Assembly: GCF_014651235.1 (NCBI RefSeq)
Contig: NZ_BMWM01000002.1
Span: 1-64,000, forward strand
Length of the DNA stretch: 64,000 nt
Direction of reading: 5' to 3'
Source: Leuconostoc lactis KCTC 3528 = DSM 20202
GTDB lineage: Bacteria > Bacillota > Bacilli > Lactobacillales > Lactobacillaceae
A model generated the notes under the pieces. It made no database searches. It had not been told where the DNA came from and saw only the letters and a list, made by a program, of their open reading frames with translations. The position numbers and the translations under genes were made by a program. Positions 45,100 to 59,788 of this stretch are shown here, piece by piece (positions within the stretch are counted from its first letter, which is position 1; every line of letters begins with the position of its first letter).

Positions 45100-45117
45100 G
45101 ATGTCATAACTAAATAA

Positions 45118-45195
45118 CACGATCTGGGGTGCCGAGTTGGCTGAGAAATACCCATTGAACCTGATCGCGGTAATGCGCGCGAAGGGAGATTCATT
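45118..45195 (+). promoter_or_regulatory. TPP riboswitch
   Basis: Conserved parts are GGGGTGCC, CTGAGA (45141-45146), ACCTGATC (45159-45166) and GCGCGAAGGGA. ATCT (45122-45125) and AGAT (45187-45190) close P1. It precedes a terminator and thi genes, so thiamine pyrophosphate should switch transcription off. Confidence 0.95.
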
Positions 45196-45234
45196 GATGA
45201 AGACTAATAAGTGGGTTAAACCATACTTTTTATG

Positions 45235-57155: not shown

Positions 57156-57850
57156 TGAGCAAACCTCGAGGTATAGCGTTCTAACTGATGTTGGGCAAGC
57201 GATAAAATGGTGGTGAAGACAGCGTAAACAAATGCAGCTAAAATGTACATAGTCAAAATTTGATAATTTTCAGCAGCAATTTGTTGACTGAGGTAAAACA
57301 TTTCCACAATGGTAATTACGCTGGCGAGTGAGGTATCTTTTAACAAACCAATTAAAGCATTGCTTAACGGCGGGATTGAGATCCGCGCCGCTTGTGGCAA
57401 AATGACATCCGCAAAGACTTGCCAGCGATTCATCCCTAATGATTCAGCCGCTTCAATTTGGACGCGCGGGACCGACGAAATCGCGGCACGGACACTTTCC
57501 GAAGCATAGGCCCCTGTATTAAGGGAGAAAACGGTAATTGCTGATAGCCAAGCGTTGGCAAAGAGTGTCACATGCGCGCTGGGGAGACCATAAAACACAA
57601 TAAACAATTGCACAATCATGGGTGTTGACCGGAAAAGCCACACGTAAAAGCCGGCAATGGTTTTATGTCCTCGCAGTAGCAGTCGCGGAATCGGCGCTGC
57701 GGGTAACTTGGCTAAACGAATGAGCGCCGTGATGACGGCAAATACAAGTGCTAAAGCAAATGATATGACGGTCAGTGGTAATGTATAAATTAATGCGGCC
57801 CGAAAAAGTTGGGGCAGATATTGGCCGGCGAGGGGGATAAAATCAGACAT
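57152..57850 (-). CDS. Polar amino acid ABC transporter permease
   Basis: A 232-residue membrane subunit of the HisM/GlnP type with about five helices and the coupling motif near E-A-A-E-S-L-G-M. It carries the cystine-type importer's membrane channel. AAAGGA precedes the start. It lies between the binding-protein and ATPase genes. Confidence 0.9.
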   Translation of the reverse strand: MSDFIPLAGQYLPQLFRAALIYTLPLTVISFALALVFAVITALIRLAKLPAAPIPRLLLRGHKTIAGFYVWLFRSTPMIVQLFIVFYGLPSAHVTLFANAWLSAITVFSLNTGAYASESVRAAISSVPRVQIEAAESLGMNRWQVFADVILPQAARISIPPLSNALIGLLKDTSLASVITIVEMFYLSQQIAAENYQILTMYILAAFVYAVFTTILSLAQHQLERYTSRFAQ

Positions 57851-57912
57851 GGGTAGCGTTCCTTTTAGCGACGATATGGTTCAATTAACGTTTGAGCCGT
57901 GAACCGGTTGGT

Positions 57913-58704
57913 TTATGGCTGGGTGAGATCAGTATTGAAGTATTTAAGTGACAATTTTTTGAGTGTGCCATCAGCTTCTAAGTCTTTTAAGGCGTTATTA
58001 ATGGCCTTTTGAAGGGCTGTATTTTGTTTGTTAAGCAGTGGTGCGGCTGGGGTTGCGGGACTTTCTTGACTTAAATCAACGGCGGTTGTGGCAGCGTCAG
58101 GATTGGCCTTTTTCCATGTGGCATAAGCACCTAAGTCATTGAGCGCACCGTCAGCGCGCTTGGTTGTCACTAAATTCATGGCTTCAGTCATGCCAGGGAC
58201 AGCAACGATGTCAGCGCCGCTTTTTTTAGCCAGGGCACCAAAGTTCGAAGTGGTTGATTGCGCCATCTTTTTACCTTTAAGATCAGCTAACGTGTTGAGA
58301 TGGGTTTCATCGGTACGCTTGATGAGGACCGTTTTAGCATATAGATATGGTGTGGCAAATAAGTAAGCTTTTTGGCGTTCTGGTGTGATCCCGACATCGT
58401 TGAAAACGACATCGTAACGCTTAGCACCAAGGCCTGCAATGAGCGAATCCCACTTTGTTTGGACGTATTTGGGTTTCAAACCGAGTTTTTTGGCAATGGC
58501 AGTTGATAAGTCCACTTCAAAACCGGTCAATTGCCCATTTTGACGGTAAGAAAATGGCGCAAAAGTCCCTTCTAACCCAATAGTTAACGTGCCAGGGGTG
58601 ATCGTTTGTGAGGCTTCTTTTGGCCGGGCTTGGTGTTGGGTAAGGCCGATAGCTAAACCGGCTACAACAACGAGGCTGGCGACGATGATGATGATTTTTT
58701 TCAT
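57913..58704 (-). CDS. Amino acid ABC transporter substrate-binding protein, probably cystine
   Basis: A 263-residue secreted or membrane-anchored binding protein. The first 22 residues are a signal or anchor helix without a lipobox Cys. The domain begins with L-T-I-G-L-E-G-T-F-A-P-F-S-Y and has L-T-G-F-E-V-D and K-W-D-S-L-I-A-G-L, patterns of the TcyA/TcyJ/FliY cystine-binding group, with V-G-I-T-P-E-R-Q. Cystine is the best guess, supported by Cys in the upstream leader peptide. AGGAG sets the start. Confidence 0.85.
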   Translation of the reverse strand: MKKIIIIVASLVVVAGLAIGLTQHQARPKEASQTITPGTLTIGLEGTFAPFSYRQNGQLTGFEVDLSTAIAKKLGLKPKYVQTKWDSLIAGLGAKRYDVVFNDVGITPERQKAYLFATPYLYAKTVLIKRTDETHLNTLADLKGKKMAQSTTSNFGALAKKSGADIVAVPGMTEAMNLVTTKRADGALNDLGAYATWKKANPDAATTAVDLSQESPATPAAPLLNKQNTALQKAINNALKDLEADGTLKKLSLKYFNTDLTQP

Positions 58705-58730
58705 TTTGCTTCTCCTGTGGGCAAATAAAA

Positions 58731-58762
58731 AGCGCCAACTAGTGAAATACCTAGTTGGCGCT
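58731..58762 (-). terminator. Attenuator terminator ahead of the cystine-type ABC operon
   Basis: On the minus strand AGCGCCAACTAG (58762-58751) pairs perfectly with CTAGTTGGCGCT (58742-58731) across an eight-base loop, then TTTTATTT. It lies between the leader peptide and the first gene, so it must be bypassed for expression. Confidence 0.9.
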
Positions 58763-58804
58763 GCGTTAGTCCGTATGATAGTTTGATCAAATGTATGTCA
58801 AAAT

Positions 58805-58828
58805 ACCGGTGCTAAACAAAGCGCCGGT
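58805..58828 (-). promoter_or_regulatory. Leader-peptide hairpin competing with the attenuator
   Basis: On the minus strand ACCGGCGCT (58828-58820) pairs with AGCACCGGT (58813-58805), one C-A mismatch, six-base loop. Its GGCGCT (58825-58820) can instead pair with AGCGCC of the terminator arm (58762-58757), so the two states exclude each other. The 3' arm overlaps the leader stop codon. Confidence 0.65.
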
Positions 58829-58865
58829 GTGAGCAATATTCAGTTGCTGCGATTAACTTTAACAT
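58812..58865 (-). CDS. 17-residue leader peptide of the cystine-type ABC operon
   Basis: ATG 58865 follows GGAGG (58871-58875) with 5-base spacing. The peptide is MLKLIAATEYCSHRRFV and stops with TAG at 58812-58814. One Cys, one Ser, one His and two Arg codons lie in a row just before a hairpin. A ribosome stalled there would change RNA folding. This is the layout of an amino-acid attenuator; cysteine is the best candidate because of the downstream transporter. Confidence 0.75.
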   Translation of the reverse strand: MLKLIAATEYCSHRRFV

Positions 58866-58886
58866 AACATCCTCCAAAACAACTTC

Positions 58887-58915
58887 ATTCTAGCGATGAT
58901 TCAAGCACTTGTCAA
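58887..58915 (-). promoter_or_regulatory. Promoter of the attenuator and ABC operon
   Basis: On the minus strand TTGACA (58915-58910), 17-base spacer, TAGAAT (58892-58887). Transcription should start near 58880, only a few bases before the leader Shine-Dalgarno. Confidence 0.85.
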
Positions 58916-58920
58916 TGTTT

Positions 58921-59577
58921 TTACTTCGTCAGTTCCCATTCGGCCTTGAACTGGTCTAAGAAGTCTAACATGAATTGATGCCGGGTTTCGGCTATTTGAC
59001 GGGCTGTGTCGGTGTTGAGATGCGCTTTAATGTGCAATAGTTTTTCGTAAAAATGATTGATTGTTGTGCCGTCAGTTTGCCGATACTGAGTCTTGTCATG
59101 AATCGTACGTGGGGGAATGGCTGGATCGTAGAGCACGCGGTTTTTCACAGCACCATAGGTTATGGTGCGGGCAATCGCAATGGCGCCAATAGCTTCAAGG
59201 CGGTCGGCATCTTGAACGATTTGGCCGTTAATGTCTAGTGGGGCGGCTTTCCCATCAAGATGCTTGGACCAAGACATATTGTCAATAATATGAAAAATTT
59301 GCGCCTGAGTGTCTGGCGATACGGCAATGGTCGTTAAAAAATCAGCCAAGGCGTTTTTGGCTGCGGCCACCTCGGTGGGTGTATCAAATAATTTATCATC
59401 GTAGACATCATGCAATAAAGCAGCGGCTTGGACGATAAACGGGTCTGCAGTGGGTTCCTGAGCTAAAATTTTATTGGCTAAGGCAACCACGCGCTCAATG
59501 TGGTCAACACTATGGCCGGATTGATCAGCAGCTAGGGCTTGCTGCATATAATGAGTAATTTGGGTGAGTTGCGACAT
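58921..59577 (-). CDS. HD-domain phosphohydrolase (YpgQ/YedJ-like)
   Basis: A 218-residue cytoplasmic HD enzyme: first His in H-S-V-D-H, the H-D pair in L-L-H-D-V-Y-D-D, and D-A-D-R-L-E-A-I-G late, all as in the YpgQ group of nucleotide phosphohydrolases. AGGAGG precedes the ATG. It is monocistronic, divergent from metG. The substrate is not known, though YpgQ-type enzymes act on nucleoside triphosphates. Confidence 0.85.
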   Translation of the reverse strand: MSQLTQITHYMQQALAADQSGHSVDHIERVVALANKILAQEPTADPFIVQAAALLHDVYDDKLFDTPTEVAAAKNALADFLTTIAVSPDTQAQIFHIIDNMSWSKHLDGKAAPLDINGQIVQDADRLEAIGAIAIARTITYGAVKNRVLYDPAIPPRTIHDKTQYRQTDGTTINHFYEKLLHIKAHLNTDTARQIAETRHQFMLDFLDQFKAEWELTK

Positions 59578-59788
59578 AAAATAGCCTCCTGTTTAACCGA
59601 GCGGTTATCCCTTTACTTTAGCATTTTGGCTAGGATTTGCATAGCTAAACCAACGGTAGCGCCTGTCGGAAAACAACCTTAAAAAACTATGAAATACGGT
59701 TAAAATTCGTTATAATTAGCATAGTAGAGACTGCCTCATACGGCGCAAGTCACGTGACAAAACACGCGAATTAGAAAGAGAGACTCAT

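Follow-up and report, generated by a model that had tools for sequence, protein, structure and literature searches.

A putative cysteine leader-peptide attenuator ahead of a cystine-type ABC transporter operon in Leuconostoc lactis and related bacteria

Amino-acid leader-peptide transcription attenuators of the trp/his type are a known class, and their leader peptides mostly carry runs of sensor codons. T-boxes bind the tRNA directly, without translation. A title by Canestrari (2020) reportedly belongs with the Cys-rich short ORFs of Actinobacteria. The his attenuator of E. coli is described in PMC9413887 (this and the other papers are cited here from excerpts), and His leader attenuators have been predicted in Bacillales, Eubacteriales and Erysipelotrichales (PMC2965389, PMC9413887). 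Like the locus described here, these are predicted cases of ribosome-mediated attenuation in a group with wide T-box use; they differ in having runs of His codons and in preceding his genes or hisS paralogues. The his genes of Leuconostoc and Weissella have T-boxes (PMC9413887). In L. paracasei a Cys-specific T-box stands before an ABC transporter operon (PMC6004538), so that there too, within the Lactobacillaceae, an amino-acid ABC operon has a leader for premature termination linked to Cys; no T-box match was found in the stretch analysed here. Cys codons in short upstream ORFs before sulfur genes are found in Actinobacteria (PMC1262725, PMC4633059): their leader peptides have runs of Cys, in Mycobacterium without a conserved terminator hairpin (PMC1262725), mycobacteria have cysteine-rich uORFs (PMC4633059), and those of M. 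smegmatis are described as cases of translation attenuation in a citing sentence of PMC13236596. Among the matches listed in our literature search, taken as titles and beginnings of abstracts and with subscription papers mostly outside it, there was no Cys leader-peptide attenuator in Lactobacillales.

The locus that we describe here belongs to Leuconostoc lactis KCTC 3528 and lies within the first 64,000 nucleotides of contig NZ_BMWM01000002.1, the whole stretch that was analysed and that is called the window below. We consider it very probable that it is a classical ribosome-mediated transcription attenuator, in which Cys-tRNA is sensed via a Cys codon and which controls a cystine-type ABC importer; for this reading we computed the parts, their conservation, the position of the Cys and how the alternative helices covary. 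With the trp/his-type attenuators it has in common that the presumed sensed residue is in the leader peptide and that protector stem, antiterminator and terminator share strands. It differs from them in its Cys specificity, in a mostly single sensor codon, in its transporter target and in its lactic acid bacterium host, and from the actinobacterial cases, where the excerpts speak of runs or clusters of Cys, in having mostly one Cys, an intrinsic terminator and a cystine-type importer behind it. All the parts named in an initial annotation of this DNA were found on the minus strand at 58915-58705, and together with the neighbouring genes they are as follows.

59577-58921, minus strand: HD-domain gene, upstream neighbour of the promoter
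58915-58887, minus strand: promoter TTGACA-N17-TAGAAT, just 3' of the stop codon of the HD-domain gene, 11/12 consensus
58875-58871, minus strand: Shine-Dalgarno GGAGG of the leader peptide, from the sequence
58865-58812, minus strand: leader ORF MLKLIAATEYCSHRRFV, 17 codons plus stop, with counterparts in relatives
58833-58835, minus strand: putative sensor Cys codon TGC, codon 11, 8 nt before the CCGG of P1
58828-58805, minus strand: P1 hairpin (protector stem), ACCGGCGC/GCACCGGU, spanning the codons after Cys and the stop codon
58777-58807, minus strand: P2 hairpin, GGUAUUUUGA..UCAAACUAUC, within the antiterminator rod, from folds
58757-58825, minus strand: antiterminator, 58825-58812 (GGCGCUUUGUUUAG) pairing with 58769-58757 (CUAACGCAGCGCC), from truncated-transcript folds and own-partner permutations
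58762-58723, minus strand: intrinsic terminator, a 12-bp stem (58762-58731) followed by a T-run
58704-57913, minus strand: solute-binding protein (SBP_bac_3), cystine type
57850-57152, minus strand: ABC permease, best NCBIfam hit a cystine permease, below cut-off
57155-56421, minus strand: ABC ATPase, best NCBIfam hits ArtP and then TcyN, below cut-off

A translatable short ORF with its ribosome site thus lies between promoter and first gene, and this is retained in relatives. The initial annotation had been right about the ribosome site, the 17-codon peptide with Cys-Ser-His-Arg-Arg, the hairpin over those codons and the stop, and the intrinsic terminator before the binding-protein gene, whose stem ends 26 nt from the ATG at 58704. 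The promoter had been called perfect; it is present with the spacing given, but at 11/12 it is near-perfect, and since a scan of 57800-59700 found 1 promoter-like site against 3.0 expected in shuffles, the match alone is no evidence. The best promoter sites of 16 scored leaders, the window's included, reach 8-11/12 of the consensus (10 or 11 in 10 of them). The 178-nt leader RNA has a folding energy of -54.1 kcal/mol; 200 shuffles average -37.4 (sd 3.8), which gives z = -4.4, and none of them folds as stably.

The same design was read in 39 genomes: 7 of 19 Leuconostoc, 2 Convivina, 2 of a genus g53 and all 28 of a genus g32, which is probably Weissella. A DNA search of 41 genomes gave matches in 11, of which 8 were leaders (7 in the genus of the window, its own included, and 1 in another genus of the family). 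Relatives with the leader are Leuconostoc holzapfelii, L. pseudomesenteroides, L. falkenbergense, L. citreum, L. palmae, the two Convivina and two other Lactobacillaceae; at the remaining 27 of the 36 loci of this named collection no leader was seen by eye within 350 nt upstream of the match. A covariance model (R1) run over 397 genomes of the family found 13 genomes at E < 1e-9, every one with a leader, 12 of them being training leaders or near copies and one (G051) new. Its weaker matches, where read, were plain terminators, except one (L093): here a permease gene has a genuine leader in front of it, and this gave the entry to g32. Ten weak covariance-model matches (L092, L094-L096, L099, L110-L112, L116 and L117) look like plain terminators and were rejected, so that the tallies of 153/397 and 22/28 genomes are not leader counts. 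A second model (R3) found 19 of the 397 genomes, all in g32, while a one-mismatch motif search matched 39 of the 397; in the loci read, 11 genomes had a leader and most others resembled coding sequence. An order-level search of 295 genomes with stricter filters gave 5 at E<=1e-6, four of them known and the fifth (G114) with no leader visible, and so added none.

The leader goes with the transporter across differing upstream neighbourhoods. In Leuconostoc a close orthologue of the binding protein (at least 68% identity) is present in 7 of 19 genomes, the same 7 that have the leader; in four other Leuconostoc genomes, with a paralogue of 48-53% identity, no leader was found upstream either by eye or by the models. 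Over these four paralogues and 27 distant binding-protein loci no leader came to light: model R2 gave one weak match (E 0.003, in L072, away from the binding-protein gene) and R3 none, and 20 of the 31 loci compared with Rfam gave no match at cut-off. The permease occurs in all 28 g32 genomes, and before a copy of it or its operon the leader was read in 28 of 28: it precedes the binding-protein gene in five (G051, G389, G117, G364 and G337) and the permease in the rest. This amends the initial annotation, which knew the leader before the binding protein, as in the window. In G143, also of g32, the binding-protein gene is divergent and the leader still accompanies the transporter; in G229 a second permease copy stands behind a gene for a Cys/Met PLP enzyme, without leader. 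The stop codon of the leader lies further downstream in L006, L007, L049, L115 and L146.

The operon has the order binding protein, permease, ATPase and is most like cystine importers. The binding protein had been described as resembling cystine binders; cystine models are indeed the best hits for both it and the permease, but the scores stay below the curated NCBIfam cut-offs (165.7 of 312 and 184.4 of 300, respectively). The closest solved chain to the binding protein is 2yln (E 3e-53), which we take to be the gonococcal cystine receptor. A Leuconostoc paralogue with 52% identity (L171) lies straight behind a cystathionine-lyase/synthase-like gene, the only paralogue locus of its set that was read as ORFs. 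From the best model hits below cut-off, the Cys sensor and this sulfur-gene neighbourhood of the paralogue, we infer that the transporter carries cystine. Paralogous transporter genes directly 3' of cystathionine-lyase/synthase-like genes and without leader are seen at L171 314-2292 and L148 420-2400.

At Rfam cut-offs the whole window contains only a TPP riboswitch and tRNA, with nothing in the leader. The TPP riboswitch is at 45115-45204 on the plus strand, above its gathering score. The T-box model (RF00230) had no match in the window at the gathering score and none in nine relatives at E<=1; at this last threshold two chance-level Rfam matches overlap leaders of these relatives, SNORA77 in L004 (23.4 of 42 bits) and BTnc231 in L150 (23.4 of 80.4). 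Eight leader peptides gave no NCBIfam hit. A metabolite riboswitch or protein-bound RNA, the short ORF being incidental, would agree with the two alternative folds and with the RNA core CCGGUAUUUUGA, well conserved in Leuconostoc, Convivina and g53. We give it next to no credence: ribosome sites and in-frame Cys are retained in g32 though the RNA sequence there changes heavily, no Rfam family matches the window's leader at cut-off, and the matches in relatives are at chance level.

What recurs in the peptides is the Cys. In 38 of the 39 genomes, from four genera, an in-frame Cys stands 7-9 nt before P1; the one deviating genome is G314, in which a duplication of 8 nt puts the Cys of the leader (L141) out of frame. 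Over the 29 leaders measured, with the arm start set by hand for the CUUGG and UUUGG forms, the distance from Cys to the 5' arm of P1 was 8 nt in 26, 7 in one and 9 in two, and the Cys was always codon 11-13. It is written both TGC and TGT. Apart from the start no other residue is common to all leaders, as judged by eye, and the rest of the peptide varies. As Cys makes up 14 of 14,616 residues (about 0.1%) in the window's ORFs of 250 aa or more, this recurrence is not chance. The usual feature of several sensor codons in a row is absent from most leaders: 22 of the 29 have a single Cys, seven have two or three (L008, L018, L136, L138, L139, L140 and L145), and only in L140 are these adjacent.

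A single Cys codon in most leaders and its fixed place at codon 11-13 would also suit an arrest peptide, whose nascent chain would sense free cysteine or cystine in the exit tunnel rather than the charging of the tRNA (TnaC senses tryptophan). Arrest peptides, however, usually keep their key residues, and the residues before the Cys are little alike between lineages (MLKLIAATEY, MSLFNPTKLV, MASNAHTMRMQA, MIHITSHYIVA), bar a recurrent MLK or MFK start; we regard this as very unlikely.

The initial annotation had left room for Arg or His as the sensed residue, which would go with a transporter of basic amino acids. The tandem CGG CGC is present in 6 of 7 Leuconostoc leaders, the top NCBIfam hit of the ATPase is ArtP, and in the folds described below the terminator arm pairs in L004 and L005 no less with the ribosome at the Arg codons (0.28-0.33) than at Cys (0.24-0.30). 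Nevertheless, neither Convivina leader has an Arg, nor do 4 of the 5 g32 leaders that precede a binding protein; His is lacking in 3 of the 7 Leuconostoc leaders, and in the window's leader the pairing is 0.32 at Cys and 0.07-0.09 at the His and the two Arg codons. In relatives Cys-Ser-His-Arg-Arg is replaced by CSRRR, CSNRR and CSHWR. Because Trp replaces one Arg in L002, and Convivina reads the same CCGG-GCGC bases (CCGGGCGC) in another frame as Pro-Gly-Ala yet keeps the Cys, the RNA stem accounts best for the Arg pair. On these comparisons Arg and His are unlikely sensors, and an operon governed by them and carrying basic amino acids seems to us extremely improbable.

The stems change in a concerted way. 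An alignment of 14 leaders over P1, P2 and the terminator has 94.4% of its cells paired (shuffles, 80.7%; slid versions, 23-43%), and 16 of its 25 pairs changed on both sides; as it was fitted to the structure and relatedness was not removed from it, swap tests that need no alignment were used too. Two-sided changes affect each of the 12 pairs of the terminator in these 14 leaders and turn GC into AU or UA in P1 (e.g., ACCAG/CUGGU and ACCUA/UAGGU). P2 is almost invariant there, and no covariation evidence comes from it. In the swap test of P1 the own arms pair at -13.1 kcal/mol and foreign ones at -8.0 (0 of 50,000 permutations as good). The antiterminator pairing, which was part of no model, reaches -15.5 kcal/mol with the lineage's own terminator arm against -10.6 with those of other lineages (16 lineages, 0 of 100,000 permutations as good; with 8 lineages, 13 of 40,320). 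The own arm ranked first in only 4 of the 16 lineages, and second to fourth in the other 12, so that the signal is collective. The terminator arms AGCGCC, GGCGCUU, CCGCCC and GGGCAC each have a matching leader strand. The competition between GGCGCU and AGCGCC seen in the initial annotation is therefore real, although incomplete as stated, since it is part of a longer antiterminator rod. An intrinsic terminator precedes the first gene in the leaders with two exceptions, G189 (L192), where leader and P1 are present and no terminator was seen, and L. pseudomesenteroides (L006/L044), where its 5' arm is shortened. With the Cys codon kept in relatives and the stems changing on both sides there, which was the check suggested at the outset, the core of the first interpretation, a Cys leader-peptide attenuator before a cystine-type ABC transporter, is supported.

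The working of such a switch would be as follows. With cysteine plentiful, the ribosome would pass the Cys to the stop codon and cover the 5' strand of the antiterminator; the terminator would then form and transcription would end just before the binding-protein gene. With Cys-tRNA short, it would pause with its A site on the Cys codon, covering ACCGG (the outer 5' arm of P1) and leaving CGCUUUGUUUAG free to pair with CUAACGCAGCG once this is transcribed, so that the terminator would come too late and the operon would be read. P1 would be the default stem that occupies the antiterminator strand. The coupled timing of translation and transcription, Cys-tRNA as the signal, the kinetic action of P1 and cystine as the cargo are what we infer. 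In full-length equilibrium folds with a ribosome mask the terminator nearly always wins regardless of the ribosome (0.55-1.00, 13 leaders), which means that the switch must be kinetic and decided during RNA synthesis. Known attenuators decide while the RNA is being made. These folds being uninformative, they were replaced by transcripts truncated at the 5' arm of the terminator, with a footprint reaching 11 nt past the first A-site base (the trend is the same at 9 and 13). Averaged over 16 lineages, the pairing of arm and leader is then 0.44 when the Cys codon occupies the A site, and it drops to 0.31, 0.17 and 0.11 as the ribosome moves on by one, two and three codons. For the leader of the window the values are 0.50 (Tyr), 0.32 (Cys) and 0.12 (Ser), with those further on as given above. 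In this model the outer P1 arm would be covered and the antiterminator still open when the ribosome waits at Cys, and Cys would be roughly the last position that allows both.

A ribosome before the Cys also frees the antiterminator (means 0.56-0.58), and untranslated truncated RNA forms it too (0.29-0.97), which means that the fold does not set Cys apart from earlier codons and that P1 is not thermodynamically dominant. The 7-9 nt spacing and the mean profile, with an assumed footprint of 9-13 nt, fit a stall site at which the ribosome would free the antiterminator and block the protector stem, but stalls upstream fit as well and several leaders have no lasting fall: at some later codon the pairing equals or exceeds that at Cys in, for example, L004, L005, L006, L115, L138, L145 and L149, and in L093, L136 and L142-L144 other local pairings raise it once more, up to 0.58, as the stop codon is approached. 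In g32 a ribosome at Cys covers just the outer part of a longer P1. An antiterminator on average as available or more so with the ribosome upstream of Cys is what one would expect of an attenuator of translation stress, in which any slowing in the first dozen codons (by an antibiotic or a general amino-acid shortage) would open the operon and Cys would be just one trigger. We think this unlikely, as it leaves unexplained why Cys, at such a low frequency in the window's ORFs, recurs in frame at one position in 38 of the 39 genomes, and also the link to a cystine-type transporter.

Besides, the start region of the leader (58865-58856) can pair with 58804-58795 on the minus strand, just past P1, and there are counterparts in relatives. 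Over 16 lineages this pairing shows weak but measurable covariation (-6.7 kcal/mol for own partners, -5.2 for foreign ones; 182 of 50,000 permutations were as good), and it may limit repeated translation of the leader. One could imagine, as a tentative and rather doubtful extension, a Cys attenuator common to the whole Leuconostoc-Weissella family, mostly with one codon and with this pairing as a third layer, by which a finished round would stop further leader translation and fix the decision.

The mechanism itself is of a known class, and what appears new is intrinsic-terminator attenuation with Cys specificity, in a new lineage and mostly with one sensor codon. T-box matches occur at 17 places in the genome of the window, 2 of them scoring above the cut-off of Rfam; in this operon the genome thus departs from a device that it uses elsewhere. 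A leader with a terminator has been published before the cysteine-responsive operon cysK2-ctl1-cysE2 of L. paracasei (PMC6004538, excerpt), and this could be another leader-peptide attenuator; the exact pattern of its terminator motif is absent from 151 genomes of the family. If our reading is true, leader-peptide attenuation with an intrinsic terminator would extend to cysteine as a sensed amino acid, and this in bacteria that use T-boxes widely; it would suggest, too, that one codon can suffice. For Leuconostoc and its relatives, the signal itself would then be a reason to name this transporter a cystine importer. In bacteria of food fermentations, the supply of sulfur amino acids matters for growth and flavour.
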